A DNA stretch of 64,000 nucleotides from a virus, in the IMG/VR virus record IMGVR_UViG_3300010885_055964, positions 62,001 to 126,000 of that record. One strand, 5' to 3'. Below are positions 46,284-59,690 of the stretch, piece after piece; position 1 is the stretch's first letter; the number at the start of each line of letters is the position of its first letter. The translations under genes and the position numbers were made by a program. The notes below the pieces were generated by a model that saw only the letters and a list, made by a program, of their open reading frames with translations, had not been told where the DNA came from and made no database searches.

Positions 46284-46862
46284 ATGCCAGGTTTTAACAT
46301 CAACGGTAGTGGTGGCCAGAATAATAACTCGCCAGCACACACTGTCGAAGTGCGTCGTAAGCACCGTTGGCACTTCGAGACACTAGGTCGCGGAACGGGT
46401 AACTGGTCGCAGACAGAGCTATTGATGCTCCAGTCTGCTTCACGTCCAAGTTTCAAGCTTGAAGAGCCGGAAATGCACCACAACCAAGAGATAGTGCGTT
46501 TTGCTGGCAAACAGAGTTGGGAGCCAGTTACTCTCAAGTGGTATGATGGTGAGCAGAATCCAGACATATCTAAGGGGATATATCACTGGATTGAGACTGT
46601 GGTGAATATGCAGTCGATCCAAGTCGCTCACCCACGTAATTATAAGAAGCAAGCATCATTGGTAGTGACTGATGGTACTGGTCAGACCAATGAGCGGTGG
46701 TCAATGTATGGCACATGGCCCACCGCAGTCAACTGGCAAGAGCTGGATTATTCAGCGACAGAATTGTTGACGTGCGAAGCCACCATGAGATACGATAGAG
46801 CGGTTAGAGACTGTGTCCAGTCCCCAGGGCCACGGACCATATCTCCAAGCTGCCCTAATTGA
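46284..46862 (+). CDS. tail tube protein 1
   Basis: 192 residues, starting MPGFNING. Its core (RKHRWHFETLGRG, QEIVRFAGKQSWEPVTLKWY, LDYSATELLTCEATMRYDRA) matches the gp19/tube fold, a beta-barrel ring that stacks as the inner tail tube. It follows the sheath gene by 15 bases, the usual place, and has high-expression codons. A strong terminator follows. Confidence 0.85.
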   Translation: MPGFNINGSGGQNNNSPAHTVEVRRKHRWHFETLGRGTGNWSQTELLMLQSASRPSFKLEEPEMHHNQEIVRFAGKQSWEPVTLKWYDGEQNPDISKGIYHWIETVVNMQSIQVAHPRNYKKQASLVVTDGTGQTNERWSMYGTWPTAVNWQELDYSATELLTCEATMRYDRAVRDCVQSPGPRTISPSCPN

Positions 46863-46892
46863 TTTGGTTATCGCGATTACCATCAAACACAA

Positions 46893-46927
46893 AGAAAAGG
46901 CCCCGCATTTAATGCTGGGCCTTTTCT
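46893..46927 (+). terminator. terminator after sheath and tube genes
   Basis: AGAAAAGGCCC / GGGCCTTTTCT forms an 11-base perfect stem with a 13-base loop, ending in a TTTTCT arm. It lies 30 bases after the tube stop and separates the sheath/tube pair from the second tube-like gene, fitting a need for more sheath and tube than other tail parts. The A-rich left arm would allow action on both strands. Confidence 0.85.
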
Positions 46928-46940
46928 ATAGGTGAACAAT

Positions 46941-47567
46941 ATGCCAGGATTCAATATAGCTACTGATAAAGCCATCAATTGTCCGGCCAACGACAGTAAT
47001 TTAACTAATACGCCAATATATCAAGGGCCTTCATATACTGAAGAAACAGCGAGGAGCTATAGATATAAGCTTGAAGTGTTAGAGCCATTAGGAACTACTA
47101 CAGGAAACGGAATATTGTTGTTTCTCGAGAAATGTACAAGACCCACACCTGAGGTAGATGAGATAGTAATACATAGTGGGCAGGATGAGATTATTAGACC
47201 AGGTAAAAACAGATGGAGTCCGATCGAATTTACTTTCTATGAGAAGCTGTCAGGAGCAGCCTCAGAAGATGGTGGATCCCCAATAGATTCCGTAGCAGAA
47301 AAGATCTACGAATGGTGGGGGTCTTCTATGATAGATTTAAAAACCTCATCGCACCGCCCAGTAACCGATTACTATAAAAGAGCTGAATTATCTATGAAGG
47401 ACGGATATGGTAATGATGTGTGGACATACTATCTGTATGATTGCTGGCCTGTTAAGGTCACACCAGGTAATCTAGATTATGCTGATAGTCAGATTGCCCG
47501 TATAACTGTGACATTGAGATATAATAAAGCACAAGAGCAGAAGAATAGTCATTCCAATACTATTTAA
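46941..47567 (+). CDS. tail tube-like protein 2
   Basis: 208 residues from ATG 46941 (AGGTG upstream; a GTG at 46932 is less likely). It begins MPGFNIAT like the other two, and has SYRYKLEVLEPLG, IRPGKNRWSPIEFTFYE and LDYADSQIARITVTLRYNKA at the same relative places as tube 1. Its loops are longer. It may form part of the tube base or tip in few copies, in line with its place after a terminator. Confidence 0.7.
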   Translation: MPGFNIATDKAINCPANDSNLTNTPIYQGPSYTEETARSYRYKLEVLEPLGTTTGNGILLFLEKCTRPTPEVDEIVIHSGQDEIIRPGKNRWSPIEFTFYEKLSGAASEDGGSPIDSVAEKIYEWWGSSMIDLKTSSHRPVTDYYKRAELSMKDGYGNDVWTYYLYDCWPVKVTPGNLDYADSQIARITVTLRYNKAQEQKNSHSNTI

Positions 47568-47577
47568 GGAACAGAAT

Positions 47578-48126
47578 ATGCCAGGTTTTAGAGTGAGCGG
47601 TATATCAGGGACATTCGGCGGAGCTGAGAAGCAAGCTGCTACCGCCGGTCCACCATCGACTCGCGACTATCATTATTCATACACATGGCAAGTGTTGGAA
47701 CTAGTGGGCAATTATGAATATCTATTAATCACCACTATCAAGGATATAACATTACCTACATTTACAGTGACCACAGAAACCGCACAGGGTGCGAGTCTAG
47801 AATATAAGTTCGCCAAGAGTGTGTCATACGATGATGTAAAGGTAACCTTTTATGATACAGTAGGATTATTGGCTAAGATGAAGGAATGGAGGATGTCAGT
47901 ATGGACACCACAGCAAGGATTAAAAGTGGCTAATGAATATAAGAAAAACTCAAGGATTAATGTGTTCACGCCAGAATGGGTAGCTGATAAACAGCAAAAC
48001 TTTACATTATATGGTTCTTGGCCATCGGTAATAAGACATGGCGAATTAACTTACGCCAATAGCGACGTGAAAATAGTAGAAGCGACTATAACATACGACT
48101 GGGCTGAAGAACAGCCGTCTGTATAA
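47578..48126 (+). CDS. tail tube-like protein 3
   Basis: 182 residues beginning MPGFRVSG. YHYSYTWQVLELVG, YDDVKVTFYDTVG and LTYANSDVKIVEATITYDWA correspond to the conserved strands of tubes 1 and 2. It is more distant. It may be a tube-initiator or hub-adaptor paralogue. It starts ten bases after tube 2. Confidence 0.65.
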   Translation: MPGFRVSGISGTFGGAEKQAATAGPPSTRDYHYSYTWQVLELVGNYEYLLITTIKDITLPTFTVTTETAQGASLEYKFAKSVSYDDVKVTFYDTVGLLAKMKEWRMSVWTPQQGLKVANEYKKNSRINVFTPEWVADKQQNFTLYGSWPSVIRHGELTYANSDVKIVEATITYDWAEEQPSV

Positions 48127-48201: not shown

Positions 48202-49302
48202 ATGGCAGACACTCCAGATGGGATTACCCCGGCTGATTTAGCTGGCAAGAAGATGCCTAATGAAGAACTACTAGATATAGGCTCGAATATAAAGCCGATA
48301 TCTAGTACTTCCAGTGCCGATAGATCGCAGAACAATAGCGATCAGGATGGTGGTACTAAAAATCACATGGAACAGCATGTGGCAGACCTACATAATGTAG
48401 CTGCTCCAGGAGATAATGTAGATGATTTTTTAGATAAATTATTACAGACTCCTGCTAATCAATTAATACCATGGGAAAATTGCTGGCTGCCTAGCAAAGG
48501 GCTTTACTACGATGGTGACTGGGACAATGGCCTAGTTAAGGTCAGGGCCATGGGCCAAACAGCAGAGAAGATATTGGCTACACAACGATTGGCTAAGTCT
48601 GGCCAATCAATAGATATGTTATTTAATGAATGTTGTCAATTTCCCGAAGGTTTCGATCCTATCAATCTGCTGTTAGGTGATCGTGTCTTCTTGTTGTACT
48701 TCTTACGTGGCATTACCCACGGTAACATTTATGAGTTCGCTTTCACATGCCCGAATGAAGAGTGCCAGAAGGTCTCTACGCATGCTTACGATTTGAACGA
48801 GCTGGCAGACACAATTACTTGGGCAGATCCTTCTTTGGGTAATGAACCGTTCAGGGTCGATTTACCATACTTGAGTAAGGCTACAGGAAGAGATGTGTGG
48901 GTAGGGGTTCGCTACTTGCGGGCGTACGATGCTAATGATCTTTTGGCTAAGAGGAAAGCCAAGGATAAGATGAAGGTAAAACCTGGAAATACGGTCCGAA
49001 CTCGAGGGCAGAGTGTCGCCAATTTCAGTAGAAATCAGCAACAAAGTGGGCAGTTAGATGATGCATTAACTGATAACCTCGAGAAAGTGATAGTGAGTGT
49101 GATGGGGTCGCAAGATCCCTTTAAGATTAGGCAATTCGTTCACCAAATGCACGCACAGGACACATCAACTGTAAGAGAATGGTTAAGAGAGCGTACTCCA
49201 GGTATCGATAACACAGTCATAGTCGGGTGCCCCGACTGTAACGCAGACCATACGGTGGAGCTTCCGATTACGGAGGCATTTTTTCGCCCGTCAAAGCGTT
49301 GA
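48202..49302 (+). CDS. T4 gp26-like baseplate / tail assembly protein (0-frame product)
   Basis: 366 residues. After an acidic, disordered N-terminus (about 85 residues), NCWLPSKGLYYDGDWDNGLV, LLLGDRVFLLYFLRGITHGN and a zinc site (CPNEEC...CPDCNADH) match the T4 baseplate gp26 family pattern (LPSxGxxY...R...G...Y...CPxC). Such proteins act in tail or baseplate assembly. The last codons run through TTTTTTC at 49279-49285, where a +1 shift would continue into the next frame (see next entry). Confidence 0.7.
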   Translation: MADTPDGITPADLAGKKMPNEELLDIGSNIKPISSTSSADRSQNNSDQDGGTKNHMEQHVADLHNVAAPGDNVDDFLDKLLQTPANQLIPWENCWLPSKGLYYDGDWDNGLVKVRAMGQTAEKILATQRLAKSGQSIDMLFNECCQFPEGFDPINLLLGDRVFLLYFLRGITHGNIYEFAFTCPNEECQKVSTHAYDLNELADTITWADPSLGNEPFRVDLPYLSKATGRDVWVGVRYLRAYDANDLLAKRKAKDKMKVKPGNTVRTRGQSVANFSRNQQQSGQLDDALTDNLEKVIVSVMGSQDPFKIRQFVHQMHAQDTSTVREWLRERTPGIDNTVIVGCPDCNADHTVELPITEAFFRPSKR

Positions 49303-49540
49303 GGAATACGAAAAGCATTGGGCGTCTTTAATGGAACAGCAGTTCCAATTAAAGCATTATGGTAAATTAAGTCTTTTTGAACAAAACCAGATGCCCGCTG
49401 AAGAACGTGCATGGTGGATGAGGCGATTGGATAGAGAATTCAAAGAGCGAAAAGAGAGGGAAGAAGCCCAAAGTAGGTCTGTTCCCAGGCCGAGCACTCC
49501 CTCTAAACCAAATATATCCATGCCGTCTATGAGACGATAA
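49286..49540 (+). CDS. +1 frameshift extension of the gp26-like gene
   Basis: About 85 residues in the +1 frame, from ARQSVEEYEKHWASLMEQQF to RPSTPSKPNISMPSMRR. The frame is open from 49223 and has no start codon until ATG 49331, which has no ribosome site. The sequence before that ATG (VEEYEKHWASL) is coding-like and continues a helix rich in charged residues. The site TTT TTT C can re-pair as TTC after a +1 slip. In tailed phages, tail assembly chaperones are commonly made this way. The separate-gene alternative would start at 49331. Confidence 0.6.
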   Translation, partial: ARQSVEEYEKHWASLMEQQFQLKHYGKLSLFEQNQMPAEERAWWMRRLDREFKERKEREEAQSRSVPRPSTPSKPNISMPSMRR

Positions 49541-49609: not shown

Positions 49610-50443
49610 ATGAATAGTACGGGCCAAAATACTTTCCCAAGAATATCGGCCCGGCGTGGACAAGTAGTCGATCTGAATATCGATTTTTTACGTAATGGCA
49701 TACTTACCGACCCTTATGCAATTAGACGAGTCGAGATATATAAAACATCTATCGCTCCACATAATCTAATGGTGACTATCCCGATAGTAGGGATAGATCA
49801 AACAGATTATCCATCACCTCTACTTCCAACAGAGGATACAAACGGCAATGTGATATCTGGAAGCTATCATCTACACTACGCTATACCAGAAGATTTCCTA
49901 GCGCCTGACGTCTATTTTGATCTGTGGTATTATTTCGCCGACGACCCTATCGGTCATATGGGTACGGAAGTCAATCTAACTGAAGCTGACATAGACGATG
50001 ATAAGTATTCTAGTTTGTTGCTGAAGTCCTGCAATAGATTTTGGGTTTATCCAGATGGATGGTTTACTAGCGACGGTCTACAGACTGTGCGTTTTGGGTT
50101 TGAGCCACTCGATCAGAGATTCTACACACCAGAGAAGAGGCCATTAGAGATAGGACTAATGCCATTACCTCTATATGATTATAATTATAACTTAGTAAAC
50201 CCTCTTATACCATTTCTGACACCAAGCATATCTATAGAAACACAACATTGTGAGCTGTTAGTTGACAACGCTCCTGCAAGGATCGGAATAAGACAGGGGT
50301 CATACAGATCCAATCCTTGGGTTATCCAATATGATTTGGACACTTCTGCCTTTTTGAAGGGCACATACCGATATTCAATCAAATTATCGTTGCCCGATGG
50401 TTCGACTAGGGTTAGCCGTAAATTCATTTTGACAATCAGTTAA
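49610..50443 (+). CDS. virion structural protein
   Basis: 277 residues, AGGAGA upstream. It is beta-rich throughout, beginning with a domain of the form PRISARRGQVVDLNIDFLRNG and closing with TYRYSIKLSLPDGSTRVSRK, which resembles Ig-like or beta-sandwich structural proteins of large myoviruses. It lies between the tail assembly gene and the PAS protein. No catalytic motif. Confidence 0.55.
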   Translation: MNSTGQNTFPRISARRGQVVDLNIDFLRNGILTDPYAIRRVEIYKTSIAPHNLMVTIPIVGIDQTDYPSPLLPTEDTNGNVISGSYHLHYAIPEDFLAPDVYFDLWYYFADDPIGHMGTEVNLTEADIDDDKYSSLLLKSCNRFWVYPDGWFTSDGLQTVRFGFEPLDQRFYTPEKRPLEIGLMPLPLYDYNYNLVNPLIPFLTPSISIETQHCELLVDNAPARIGIRQGSYRSNPWVIQYDLDTSAFLKGTYRYSIKLSLPDGSTRVSRKFILTIS

Positions 50444-50997
50444 TGGATGGAAAAATGATAACAAAAGCTATTGATTTCGGTCCGACTAAGTTGGGCAGAA
50501 TCAGACAACTGACTGAGGAACTCAATTCGGACGAGTTAGCTATTCATTTATTCTTTAATCTAGCTCCTGATTTGTTTTGTATAGCAGACAGTATGGGTTA
50601 CATGAGGAAGATTAACCATGCATGGAAATTGATGTTGGGCTGGTCTGAGGAAGAGCTAACTAGAAAGCCATTAATCGAATTCATACATGCCCATGATGTA
50701 GCCAAGACTAAACAAATAATTGCTAAGATGGTAAGTCATGACATCATAAGATTCCACAATAGGATAAAAAGAAAGCCTGGTTCAGTGAATAGAATCAATG
50801 ACCCGAGTGGTAGCTGTGCAGGTGGCGACGATTATGTGGTTTTAGAGTGGAGTGCGACTGCATGGCATAATGATTTAACATATGCTGTGGCCAGACAGGT
50901 ACCAGTGAGTTGCCTAACATGTCCAGACGCACAAAATCGTTATGGTTGGCTACATCGAAGCATCGGCATGAACGGATCGAAGACTAATGTCCAATGA
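50443..50997 (+). CDS. PAS-domain protein
   Basis: 184 residues; the ATG overlaps the previous stop, with ATG 50455 as an alternative. LFFNLAPDLFCIADSMGYM, INHAWKLMLGWSEEELTRKP and IEFIHAHDVAKTKQIIAKM are the strand-helix order of a PAS fold, closely matching sensor-kinase PAS domains. A PAC-like segment follows (DYVVLEWSATAWHND, TYAVARQVPV). There is no kinase or cyclase domain. A PAS protein in a tail operon is odd; it could be a structural or host-signalling module. Confidence 0.75.
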   Translation: MDGKMITKAIDFGPTKLGRIRQLTEELNSDELAIHLFFNLAPDLFCIADSMGYMRKINHAWKLMLGWSEEELTRKPLIEFIHAHDVAKTKQIIAKMVSHDIIRFHNRIKRKPGSVNRINDPSGSCAGGDDYVVLEWSATAWHNDLTYAVARQVPVSCLTCPDAQNRYGWLHRSIGMNGSKTNVQ

Positions 50998-54878: not shown

Positions 54879-57800
54879 ATGGCAGTCGATCCGAATGTAT
54901 ATGCGCTGTCTCTACAGCTGCAATTAGATTCTGCAGAAGCATTCGCTTCTTTAGATAGTTTTGGTAAAGCTGCTAACGATATGGAGCAGCAGGTATCCAA
55001 AGCTGCGCAGGGTGTTATTAACACCATATCTAATAATATAGATGATATGGCCATGAAATTATCTCAGGTGGCCGCGTCCGGTAATGAAGGATTTGATTCG
55101 GCCAGTACCACTTTAGATTCGTTGTCTGCCAAGTTCATAAGCATGGCCCAGAGTGGGGCGGCTAGTTTGGATGATATAAATGAGCGACTTAAAGTGCTTA
55201 GTGATATAGATCAATTATCAGATAAGACTGAAAAACATATGAAATTGGAGAAGAAATACTCTGATGACATGCTAAAGTTTTATGCTAAATTGCAAAAGGA
55301 TATAACTAATAAGAATAAGTTACATCAATCAGAAAATACATTGGTCGGCGACGAGGGCGAGTTATTACGTGAAAATGGGGATATTATCGGCAAAAACACA
55401 AGAAAAATAGATTTAGCTAATCAAGCATACAAAGCGATTGAGCAGCAAGTAACAGCTTTGAAAGCTGCGATCGTAGCGATTGATAGTGAAGCTGAAAATT
55501 TTGTGCAGACTAATTATAGGGCCTATGGTTCACAATATGGCTTGTTACAGAATGCGATGATGCTATCTGGTGAATATGGTGCATTGCGTAAGACCACCAT
55601 CGAAGCATATAAAGCACTCGCTAATGTACGGACCCCGAAAGAAGAGATAGATGGTCTGGCAGGAATAATATCTCAGGCTAATCGTTACACAGGTGTATCA
55701 GCTGAGACAATGGCTGAGTACACTCTGCGTTTGAGACAGGCTGGTCTGAGTGGTACTCAAACTACGCAGCAGATCAAGCTAATGACGTCGGCTATGCGTG
55801 TGTACGGACTAACAACGGCTGATGTAAATGGTCTGATGAATACTAGTGCTACATCAGCATTAGCCTTAGGCGAAATGTTTGGCGGGATCGATACAGATAA
55901 AGTGGAGGAAAGCAGGTTAGTATTTGCTGGTATGGCAAAGCAAATAGGGGTCAGCACAGCAGAAGCGGCCAAATTCTTCGAAACAATGGCTACTGATGCA
56001 ATGGCCATGCAGATGTTCGGCGCTTACGCTGATATGCAGATAAACAGCGCAGAAGATCTACAGCAAGCCATGGTTAAAGCAGGCGTGAAGACTCATGAAA
56101 GTATGGCTGAATTAAAAGCTGACTTGGCTGCTGGAGATATTGGGCAGGCAGAATTTAATATTAGAAGACGACAAATGATAGATCTATATTATGCAGGCAA
56201 CGAGGCTGCATTTAGAGCTTCGATGGAACTAGGAAAAGAGGCTAAACAATTAGGATTAACAGGTGAAGCTGCATCTGATTATGGTGATATAGCTAAAAAA
56301 TTAAGAAAAGATGCGATAGACCCTTGGAGCGAATCGAATAGGACTTTGACAGCTCAGTTAAGATTATTATATAACACACTACATGGTTTGATCGGACCAG
56401 TTATAGTCAGCATATCCGAAGGATTAATGTATCTAATGATGGCAGTCAATGCAGTTATTATACCTATATTAAGGTTTATCGTAGGTCTAGGTGAGCTGTG
56501 GGCCGCGATGGAGAAATGGCCTATTATAGGATATTTATTCTCTACCATAAGAATAGGTTTCTCCATTTTGTTGGGGTTAGTAGGTGTGCTGGCTATGGCT
56601 GGCTTATCGTTAATCACATTTGCATCATTATTCGCAGGTGCTACTAATATAGTTAGAGGAGCATTAAATATAATTCGTTATGTGGGTAGAGCCATAATAG
56701 AAGTAGCACAGGCTTTAGGGCAGGGCATAGCTGCCATATTATCCGGCATAGGACAAGGGCTGGCAGCATTGGGAACCGCAGTACGGCCTGTAATAGTGCC
56801 GTTGTTGCAATTATGTTTTGCGGTGCTGCTGGTAGGTGCTGGCTTTTACATGATGGGCCTTGGTATGGCCGCTGCAGCCCAACATGGATGGGCAGCAGTT
56901 GGTATGCTGGCAGCTATGACTGTCGCTATAATCACACTAATGGTGGCATTCGCATTAATAGCAGCAGTTGCTGCGCCTGTCATACCTTTAATGATTAGCC
57001 TATCAATAGTGGCACTAACATTAGGTGCTGCAGTAATGCTCGCTGGTCTGGGCATGTACATGATGGGGATGGCTGTTGAGAGCATAGCTAACTATGGACT
57101 ACAAGCAGCAGCAGCGATACCAGCATTGGCACTTGGATTGCTAGCGTTAGGAGGAGTTGGTTATGTGGCTTCGTTAGGAATATTGGCACTAGCTGCGGCG
57201 ATGTTGGCTTTAGCCATACCAGTCTTGTTGATTGGTGTAGGATTATCACTGCTATCAGCAGCTATAGATTCTATCCAAGTTGATAACTTGGCGCCAATGG
57301 CTGAGGCCCTGCTTGAATCAGCTTACTATTTCATACAAGCTGGTTTATTATTGATACCTGCTGCAGTAATGTTAATAGTTGGCTCTGCAGGAATACTAAT
57401 AGCATCAGCAATATTAGCAGCAGCTGGAGCTGCTGTAGCAATTGCTGTGCCAGTGGTAGCAGTGGCAGGAGCTGCTTTAGTAGTGGCTGCTGCGTTGTTG
57501 CTAGCTGGTTCGGTGATGGTGTTTATTTCTGGATTAATGTTGTCGGTGGGTTCAACAATGTTGTTAGCTGGGGCCGCCATATTAACACCTGCTTCGTCTT
57601 TGATAATTGCCTCTGCTTTTATTATAGGCGCGGCTGGTTATGCTTTATCAGCTGCTGTTGGGCCGTTGTTAATAGGTGCCACTGCATTATTCACAGCTGC
57701 AGCATTGGTATTAGCGTCCGGAGGTTCAATACTGGTAGGGGCATCAATGCTATTGAGGGGTGCTAATATATTATCGACAGCATCTGAAGCATTGTTAAAC

Positions 57801-59690
57801 GCATCAACACAGGCGATGTCTGCCGCATCTATGCTATCAGATGCAATGATCATACTGCTACCAGCATCTTTAAAGACCGTAGTATCAGGGGCCTTGTTGT
57901 TAATAGGTGCTGGCTTGATATTGGGTGCTTCAATCGCATTATCGATATCTGCTCTAGCATTGGCAGCGGTCGGTACTTTAGTAATTATAGCTGCAGCATC
58001 AATTCTATATGCTTCTGTAGCATTGTCGATAGCGGCTGTGGCGTTAACAGTAGCAGCAGCCTTAATGATATCCGGTTCTGGTATAATGTATATGGCTGCT
58101 ATTACTTATTTGATAGCTTCTGAAGCTTTACTATCAGCGGCTAATAAACTGGTTCCAGCAGCTGAACAATTATATTTAGCTGCTACTAATTTATTACCTG
58201 CTGCAGCGATGTTGTTGGTATCTGCATTCTTGATGTTATCTTCTATCCCAGCATTCGTGACCGCATCCATCGGTTATTTAGTAGCATCTTCTATCTTGTA
58301 CTTAGCATCTAGCATTTTGTCTGAAGCATCGATCATGCTTTATGCAGCTGCTGAGAATATATTGCCCGCATCAGCTATGTTAGCTGCAGCAAGCGGATTT
58401 CTGTTGGTTGGGGCAAACATTATATTCTTAGCTGCTCCAATATTATTGATTGGTTCAGGCATATTATTGATCGCATCTTTGGTGTTGCTACCAGCTTCGA
58501 TAGTGCTGGGCTTAGCCTCGAGTATACTATTACCCGCCTCCACCATGCTGTTCATTTCCAGCATATACTTGTTATTAGGGGCAACTGCACTATTAACTGG
58601 GTCGACTATACTAATAACAGGTGCTGCTATATTAGCAGTAGCCTCAGTTGCTTTACTATTCACTTTACCAATAATCATGTCGGCAGCAGTCGGCATAGTC
58701 GTAGCTGCATCAGTGTTACTAGTCGGGTCGACATTGTTAATTGCGGGTGCTATGTTATTGGCCGTTGCCTCAATAGTAATGCTGTCTGGTGCGACGACTA
58801 TGTTTATGGCGAGTGCTATTCTTTTAATAGCTAGCCCTCTTTTGATTATGGCATCTAGCGGCATGCTGATAGGTGCCTACATTTTAATCTCTTCTTCATT
58901 GGTATTGGTGAGTGGTGCAGTGGCTTTAATGGCCGCATCTTTGATCATGCTACCAGCAGCACTGATTCTTTATTTTGCATTGTCGATAGTGTCTAGTGCG
59001 ACGTCTAGATTCAAGCAATCCATTTCTGACATTGGCATAATGGGTAACGGGCTTAGGATGATGGCTCAGTCATTTACTGCACTGTCAAATTTATCGTTGC
59101 GAGGATTTAGTAAGACCATAGACGATGCACTATCGGCGATGCCAGGCATAAAAAAGCTAGCCACTGAACTATCATCCTCAGCTGATTTGTTACAGAATGC
59201 TGCTGATAAATTCACAAAACCTGTTGATCAAATATCTGAGAGTTTACAGCGACTTGGTACCACACTGGCTAGTGTTGGTAACCAAGGTCTCACAGTGCAA
59301 GCTGACATGGATAAAGTCAGCGCTCTATTAGATGAATACTCCACGCTATTAGAAGGCGCAGCACAACGGATAGAGATAGCTGTGGCTACAAAGGCTCAGC
59401 CTGCTATGGCTACAGCTCGAGATGAAGGTCTGGAACAGACAGTAAGATCCGAAGCGATTAATACAGTACAGGTAATGGATAAGAGAGAAGGAAGCGCAGA
59501 ATCGAATGATATGTCTTACGAAACTAGTATGTCTCAAATAGAAATACTAAAAAGCATAAATGAAAAGATGGATAATATGGGCAATACAGCAGATGTAAAA
59601 GAAATAATATCCATATTGATGGGTTATTTGCCTAATTTAGGCACAGGGTCGGAAGGTTTAACGACTGAATTTAACTCTTGGCTAAAATAA
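54879..59690 (+). CDS. tape measure protein with a very long hydrophobic region
   Basis: 1603 residues, AAGGAG upstream. Residues 1-500 are helical with coiled-coil stretches and a segment RYTGVSAETMAEYTLRLRQA, as in tail tape measure proteins. From about 500 to 1375 nearly the whole sequence is hydrophobic, Ala/Leu/Ile/Ser-rich, with recurring units like LLPAAAMLLVSAFLML and LLIGSGILLIASLVLLPAS spaced about 11-14 residues. The last 215 residues are amphipathic and soluble-looking. It sets tail length and is thought to help cross the cell envelope. The size of the hydrophobic part is striking. Confidence 0.85.
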   Translation: MAVDPNVYALSLQLQLDSAEAFASLDSFGKAANDMEQQVSKAAQGVINTISNNIDDMAMKLSQVAASGNEGFDSASTTLDSLSAKFISMAQSGAASLDDINERLKVLSDIDQLSDKTEKHMKLEKKYSDDMLKFYAKLQKDITNKNKLHQSENTLVGDEGELLRENGDIIGKNTRKIDLANQAYKAIEQQVTALKAAIVAIDSEAENFVQTNYRAYGSQYGLLQNAMMLSGEYGALRKTTIEAYKALANVRTPKEEIDGLAGIISQANRYTGVSAETMAEYTLRLRQAGLSGTQTTQQIKLMTSAMRVYGLTTADVNGLMNTSATSALALGEMFGGIDTDKVEESRLVFAGMAKQIGVSTAEAAKFFETMATDAMAMQMFGAYADMQINSAEDLQQAMVKAGVKTHESMAELKADLAAGDIGQAEFNIRRRQMIDLYYAGNEAAFRASMELGKEAKQLGLTGEAASDYGDIAKKLRKDAIDPWSESNRTLTAQLRLLYNTLHGLIGPVIVSISEGLMYLMMAVNAVIIPILRFIVGLGELWAAMEKWPIIGYLFSTIRIGFSILLGLVGVLAMAGLSLITFASLFAGATNIVRGALNIIRYVGRAIIEVAQALGQGIAAILSGIGQGLAALGTAVRPVIVPLLQLCFAVLLVGAGFYMMGLGMAAAAQHGWAAVGMLAAMTVAIITLMVAFALIAAVAAPVIPLMISLSIVALTLGAAVMLAGLGMYMMGMAVESIANYGLQAAAAIPALALGLLALGGVGYVASLGILALAAAMLALAIPVLLIGVGLSLLSAAIDSIQVDNLAPMAEALLESAYYFIQAGLLLIPAAVMLIVGSAGILIASAILAAAGAAVAIAVPVVAVAGAALVVAAALLLAGSVMVFISGLMLSVGSTMLLAGAAILTPASSLIIASAFIIGAAGYALSAAVGPLLIGATALFTAAALVLASGGSILVGASMLLRGANILSTASEALLNASTQAMSAASMLSDAMIILLPASLKTVVSGALLLIGAGLILGASIALSISALALAAVGTLVIIAAASILYASVALSIAAVALTVAAALMISGSGIMYMAAITYLIASEALLSAANKLVPAAEQLYLAATNLLPAAAMLLVSAFLMLSSIPAFVTASIGYLVASSILYLASSILSEASIMLYAAAENILPASAMLAAASGFLLVGANIIFLAAPILLIGSGILLIASLVLLPASIVLGLASSILLPASTMLFISSIYLLLGATALLTGSTILITGAAILAVASVALLFTLPIIMSAAVGIVVAASVLLVGSTLLIAGAMLLAVASIVMLSGATTMFMASAILLIASPLLIMASSGMLIGAYILISSSLVLVSGAVALMAASLIMLPAALILYFALSIVSSATSRFKQSISDIGIMGNGLRMMAQSFTALSNLSLRGFSKTIDDALSAMPGIKKLATELSSSADLLQNAADKFTKPVDQISESLQRLGTTLASVGNQGLTVQADMDKVSALLDEYSTLLEGAAQRIEIAVATKAQPAMATARDEGLEQTVRSEAINTVQVMDKREGSAESNDMSYETSMSQIEILKSINEKMDNMGNTADVKEIISILMGYLPNLGTGSEGLTTEFNSWLK

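Follow-up and report, generated by a model that had tools for sequence, protein, structure and literature searches.

A probable +1 ribosomal frameshift at UUU_C in a gp26-type tail assembly chaperone gene

Frameshifting in tail assembly chaperones

To our knowledge, only a small number of +1 frameshift sites have been confirmed in bacteria and phages, chiefly those of release factor 2 and of some Listeria phage structural genes. Frameshifting of tail chaperone genes may be of the -1, -2, or +1 type depending on the phage, with T4 as an exception (PMC5009743). In phage lambda, a single gene beside the tape measure gene yields a short and a long chaperone (gpG and gpGT), the C-terminal domain being added by frameshifting. 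The locus described here resembles it in layout, but lambda shifts by -1 and our locus probably by +1. The Mu tail chaperone also reaches the +1 frame, but by a -2 shift, which is disfavored for our locus. For T4-like phages, chaperones of the TAC-N/TAC-NC type have already been published (Vladimirov 2022, as far as cited in PMC10885494 and PMC12846349); they likewise belong to PF12322, follow the tail tube, and in several groups obtain the C-terminal domain by frameshifting. Frameshifting of the G/GT type is therefore already known for such chaperones. T4-like groups and jumbo relatives shift -1 at T_TTT_TTC and T4 itself has separate genes 26 and 51, whereas the site studied here is a candidate for +1 at UUU_C. 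An original prediction made from this DNA had called a +1 shift notable at this type of gene; direction and motif indeed appear to be new, but gp26-type frameshifting as such is not, judging from the citing papers.

At the level of the site, a +1 shift at TTT-CGC is predicted to connect two chaperone ORFs in HF1-group haloviruses (HF2, HSTV-2) (PMC7230728); we read this site directly in the sequence as AAG TTT CGC AGA TAG. Unlike the phage analyzed here, these are archaeal viruses, and their shift is a prediction only; HF2 gave no PF12322 match, and a control search likewise gave none. For influenza PA-X, UUU_CGU has been proven to be the +1 site (PMC3498833). Sites of this type (UCC_UUU_CGU in influenza A, fijiviruses, and amalgaviruses) share the P-site UUU_C and the A-site CGN with our locus, but are read by eukaryotic ribosomes and have UCC in the E site, whereas the family studied here has UUU or UUC.

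Layout of the locus and its predicted products

The window analyzed here is a stretch of 64,000 nucleotides from a 178-kb IMG/VR virus record. The positions originally given for the 0-frame TGA, the TTTTTTC run, the open +1 frame, and its first ATG all held, and the locus comprises the following features.

46284..48126, + strand: upstream gp19-type tail tube genes; 46284-46862 and 47578-48126 match phrog_4542 / phrog_45, with 46932-47567 between them
48202..49302, + strand: TAC-N, the 0-frame gene of a gp26-type tail assembly chaperone; 366-aa product with the C terminus EAFFRPSKR (stop)
49246..49278, + strand: stretch with suppressed synonymous change (about GTGGAGCTTCCGATTACGGAG), just 5' of the shift site; possible cis stimulator, clade-specific
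49279..49285, + strand: putative shift site TTT TTT C, in frame with the 0-frame gene; P-site UUU at 49282-49284, re-pairing to UUC at 49283-49285; A-site codon CGC (rare) in the 0 frame and GCC in the +1 frame
49286..49540, + strand: TAC-C, the +1-frame extension; 84 codons plus the stop TAA at 49538-49540; ARQSVEEYEKHW...MPSMRR
49300..49302, + strand: 0-frame stop TGA, 21 nt from the start of TTT TTT C
49331..49333, + strand: first ATG of the +1 frame, unconvincing as a start
54879..59690, + strand: probable tape measure protein of 1,603 aa, Ala/Leu rich, so named solely from its length, composition, and position

From 49223 to 49540 the +1 frame is open, and up to the ATG at 49331 it contains no start codon. 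Comparison supported the predicted gp26-like identity of the 0-frame product, which matched PF12322 (T4_baseplate, T4 gp26; E value of 3.6e-7, 30.5 bits versus a cut-off of 24.5) and phrog_150 "baseplate hub" (E value of 2.4e-11). TAC-N and TAC-C were folded with AF2 as two separate parts. The TAC-N model (pLDDT of 90) matched the "baseplate hub subunit" of SP-15 in BFVD (E value of 1e-18) and resembled other gp26-type proteins there, and the TAC-C model consisted of three helices with a pLDDT of >90 across the core. TAC-C displayed the invariant motif EQQFQLK..E..E..R.W, and HHalign related it to other TAC-C groups with E values of 4e-7 to 2e-4, among them the -1 group (4e-6, probability 87) and cyanophage gp51 (2e-4, probability 47); the direct match to the C terminus of T4 gp51 was weak (0.003, probability 10). 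Solved structures searched by sequence gave no match, and the solved chaperones HK97 2ob9 and YqbN 3klu gave only nonsignificant structural matches (E values of 6 to 8). These alignments establish homology to known TAC-N proteins and suggest it, less firmly, for known TAC-C domains.

The tail sheath gene is followed by the gp19-type tube genes, the chaperone gene, and the tape-measure-sized ORF, which is in line with the tail assembly role originally assigned: the tube genes lie directly 5' of the chaperone gene, and the tape-measure ORF lies 3' with other genes intervening. In the window genome, these other genes fill a gap of 5 kb, which counts against the chaperone interpretation, whereas in LIS04 the chaperone and tape measure genes are directly adjacent. 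No phrog match was found for the tape measure candidate. One ORF between chaperone and tape measure (50443-50994) encodes a PAS domain (PF00989, E value of 3.6e-8) within the tail cluster. At the tail-tube position after the sheath, three ORFs stand in a row (46284-48126), two of which match gp19-type tube families.

Conservation of the site and reading of the second frame

A scan with the +1-frame protein yielded 30 loci, in all of which a gp26-like ORF ended just past the site and the second ORF followed in the +1 frame. Homologues encoding the fused protein as a single ORF had been proposed as a check on the prediction; all 25 distinct close loci (window included) kept the two-frame layout, with no in-frame version among them. 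tblastn with TAC-C alone found no phage record, and a scan of genome contigs with SP-15 gp26 found no relatives. Since the site is a homopolymer, the split could stem from a faulty assembly or sequence, or from a frameshift mutation acquired recently. However, the same layout recurs in the 25 distinct loci, which come from many metagenomes, and in isolate genomes of other genera; agreement among so many independent assemblies excludes a sequencing error and leaves an explanation of this kind with a negligible probability.

Site and selection counts were based on the 21 sequences left once near-duplicates had been dropped; these relatives are kin, so that their counts are not independent trials, and their synonymous divergence is high (pS of 0.64 upstream). 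Frame 0 was constrained 5' of the site (pN/pS of 0.29). Over the 15 codons from the site to the ATG, pN/pS was 0.50 in the +1 frame versus 0.98 in frame 0, and a +1-frame stop between slip+7 and the ATG occurred in 0 of the 21 sequences; 3' of the ATG, pN/pS in the +1 frame was 0.13. Judged from these ratios, purifying selection changes frame at the shift site, and the +1 frame is coding well before its ATG, as had been claimed.

The second ORF might instead be a separate small gene whose translation starts at the ATG at 49331, beyond the 0-frame stop, through reinitiation or leaky initiation. An ATG is found at this position in 24 of the 25 distinct loci, and in cyanophage relatives an ATG immediately follows the stop of gp26, the second ORF being annotated as a separate gp51. 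However, CTG replaces the ATG in one locus (L022), so that this start is not universal, and the lack of a ribosome site noted originally was borne out: the anti-Shine-Dalgarno energy at the ATG (-3.0) was near the random median (-2.0), compared to -5.8 and -7.4 for two neighboring genes. In addition, the 15 codons ahead of the ATG are conserved as coding and stop-free in the +1 frame, and the start position stays at a constant 52 nt from the shift site, with no length change in the +1 ORF up to it, while the 0-frame stop moves between 18 and 45 nt after the first T among the 25 distinct loci. A separate gene is thus improbable.

At the site itself, 20 of the 21 distinct close relatives read TTTTTTC and one (L024) TTCTTTC. 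The P-site Phe codon was TTT in 21/21 of these and in all 92 loci of the Mel-JY01/immuto clade described below, compared to 53% (TTT:TTC of 128:112 in the same genes) and 79% TTT among the other Phe codons. In all 21 close relatives, it was followed by C with CGN in the A site; the E-site codon was UUU in 20 and UUC in 1, and the PA-X-type UCC was found in none. The T6C site proposed originally is thus conserved among relatives, but the T6 run is not essential, because L024 and GXN1 carry TTC TTT C, which leaves UUU_C as the core. In both large clades, UUU was always followed by U or C, matching the requirement of a +1 slip of tRNA-Phe.

The prediction had named -2 as well; such a shift, on U6, would insert one extra Phe. 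TTT TTT permits re-pairing two bases back, so that such a shift is physically possible in the window and in other TTTTTTC members, and both Mu and arteriviruses use -2 (PMC5009743). In contrast, the TTC TTT relatives (L024, GXN1, and 13 Mel-clade loci) keep the layout although -2 re-pairing of the P-site tRNA would produce a middle-base mismatch, so Mu-type re-pairing is not available to all members; the invariable U or C after UUU also points to +1. We consider the -2 alternative unlikely, and it is the +1 part of the prediction that is supported. The same TTC TTT variants argue against slippage of RNA polymerase on the T run, in which a fraction of the mRNAs would lose or gain a base. The T6 run, extended to T7 in many Mel-clade members, might invite such slippage, but runs of 6 to 7 Ts are short for it, and the TTCTTTC members keep the layout with just three consecutive Ts. 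This explanation is even less probable than a -2 shift.

This phage seldom uses CGC (52 of 16,067 codons across the window's long ORFs), which fits a stall with this codon in the A site. Four further in-frame TTT CGN occurrences are present in window genes, so that the tetranucleotide alone is insufficient to explain programming. Synonymous suppression was the strongest in the gene at 9-codon windows before the site (z of up to 5.8 with and 4.5 without the shift codons); such an upstream signal was absent from the Mel-JY01/immuto clade. Downstream, the hairpin obtained with RNAalifold was weak and lacked compensatory changes, so that a 3' structure was rejected; since no conserved RNA structure was found there, the stimulator is uncertain. 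An upstream hairpin (TTCCG-ATTA-CGGAA) was broken in divergent members, and an internal Shine-Dalgarno motif of the window (CGGAGG) was not retained in all relatives.

By comparison of relatives, both frames are conserved as coding, the frame changes at the site, UUU_C is fixed, and the second frame lacks a usable start. We consider it very likely that a tail assembly chaperone is made from this locus in a short and a long form via a +1 slip at UUU_C. Most ribosomes would stay in the 0 frame and produce TAC-N. In a presumed minority, tRNA-Phe would occupy the P site while CGC in the A site is slowly read, then shift from UUU to UUC, with reading resumed at GCC CGU CAA. The product would be a TAC-NC of 445 aa with a small helical C-terminal domain. 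Both the proposed tRNA slip and the fusion of EAFF to ARQSVEEYEKHW stood up to comparison, with a predicted +1 junction of ...EAFFARQSVEEYEK. By analogy with lambda gpG/gpGT, TAC-N would coat the tape measure protein, and tail tube subunits may be recruited by the rare TAC-NC.

Shift direction among gp26-type relatives

A C-terminal ORF directly after gp26 in the +1 frame was also found in Bacillus phage SP-15 (TTT TTT C), GXN1 (TTC TTT C), Listeria phage LIS04 (TTT TTT A), Flavobacterium phage immuto (TTT CTT T), LR756508 (TTT C), and Mel-JY01 (TTT TTT T). The deep relatives, to which 92 loci from metagenomes in the Mel-JY01/immuto clade also belong, had the +1 layout, in almost all cases at UUU_Y. 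In this clade, the P-site TTT is followed by T: 72 loci read TTT TTT TGG CCT, 13 read TTC TTT TGG CCT (falling among L130-L144), 3 read CTT TTT TGG CCT, and 4 had other sequences. A few loci (L141, L145, L232, and L233) did not fit the pattern. L145 and L007 have CTT T (CTT TGG) at the shift position instead of TTT Y, resembling the RF2 CUU_U site, and in L145 the +1 frame closes soon after it. In Alishewanella phage Slickus01 (L044, 2387-3208), a gp26-like gene has a +1 continuation resembling the C-terminal domain, with no obvious UUU_Y or slippery heptamer.

In KVP40, P-SSM2, 121Q, PA5oct, Vibrio 2.275, Atu_ph07, XacN1, and LR756511, the C-terminal ORF lies in the -1 frame, with T_TTT_TTC or T_TTT_TTT as the site. 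In the cyanophage loci (L050-L129), TTTTTTC with a T before two Phe codons was kept ahead of the gp26 stop in 80/80; -1 frameshifting and reinitiation could both operate at these junctions, where the ATG right after the stop begins what is annotated as separate gp51 genes. T4 gp51 consists of PF12322 over residues 1 to 201, followed by a tail that matches phrog_634, to which the small KVP40/P-SSM2 ORF also belongs. T4 thus has separate genes for a short (gp26) and a long (gp51) form, in agreement with what Vladimirov, Gautam and Davidson (2022) proposed according to PMC10885494 and PMC12846349.

In a tree built from the N-terminal domain, the +1 label required three changes, at least two of which were forced by well-supported branches, with long branches blurring the exact number. 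As judged from this family tree, the predicted shift direction has changed at least two times. We slightly favor a joint interpretation in which direction changed several times within one family (+1 at UUU_Y, -1 at U_UUU_UUC, and, in T4, duplicated genes in place of a shift) and UUU_CGN serves bacterial ribosomes as a +1 site without a stop codon or 3' structure. A +1 shift of a gp26-type chaperone at UUU_C, the UUU_CGN motif in this family, and the changes of direction within it appear to be new, as far as the 2022 paper is known from those citing it.

The C-terminal extension is unannotated or appears as a truncated small ORF in the records of SP-15, immuto, GXN1, LIS04, and PA5oct (L005, L007, L008, L039, and L045), and we suggest reannotating these extensions as frameshift products. 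Public annotations of several phages (e.g., LIS04, GXN1, and SP-15) thus miss or miscall a coding extension. The family offers >110 divergent natural sites predicted to shift +1, with a common four-base core in one gene family, beside sister groups using -1, and would allow direct tests of what determines the direction of a ribosomal shift. If the joint interpretation is true, the motif known from PA-X would serve as a general +1 signal across domains of life.
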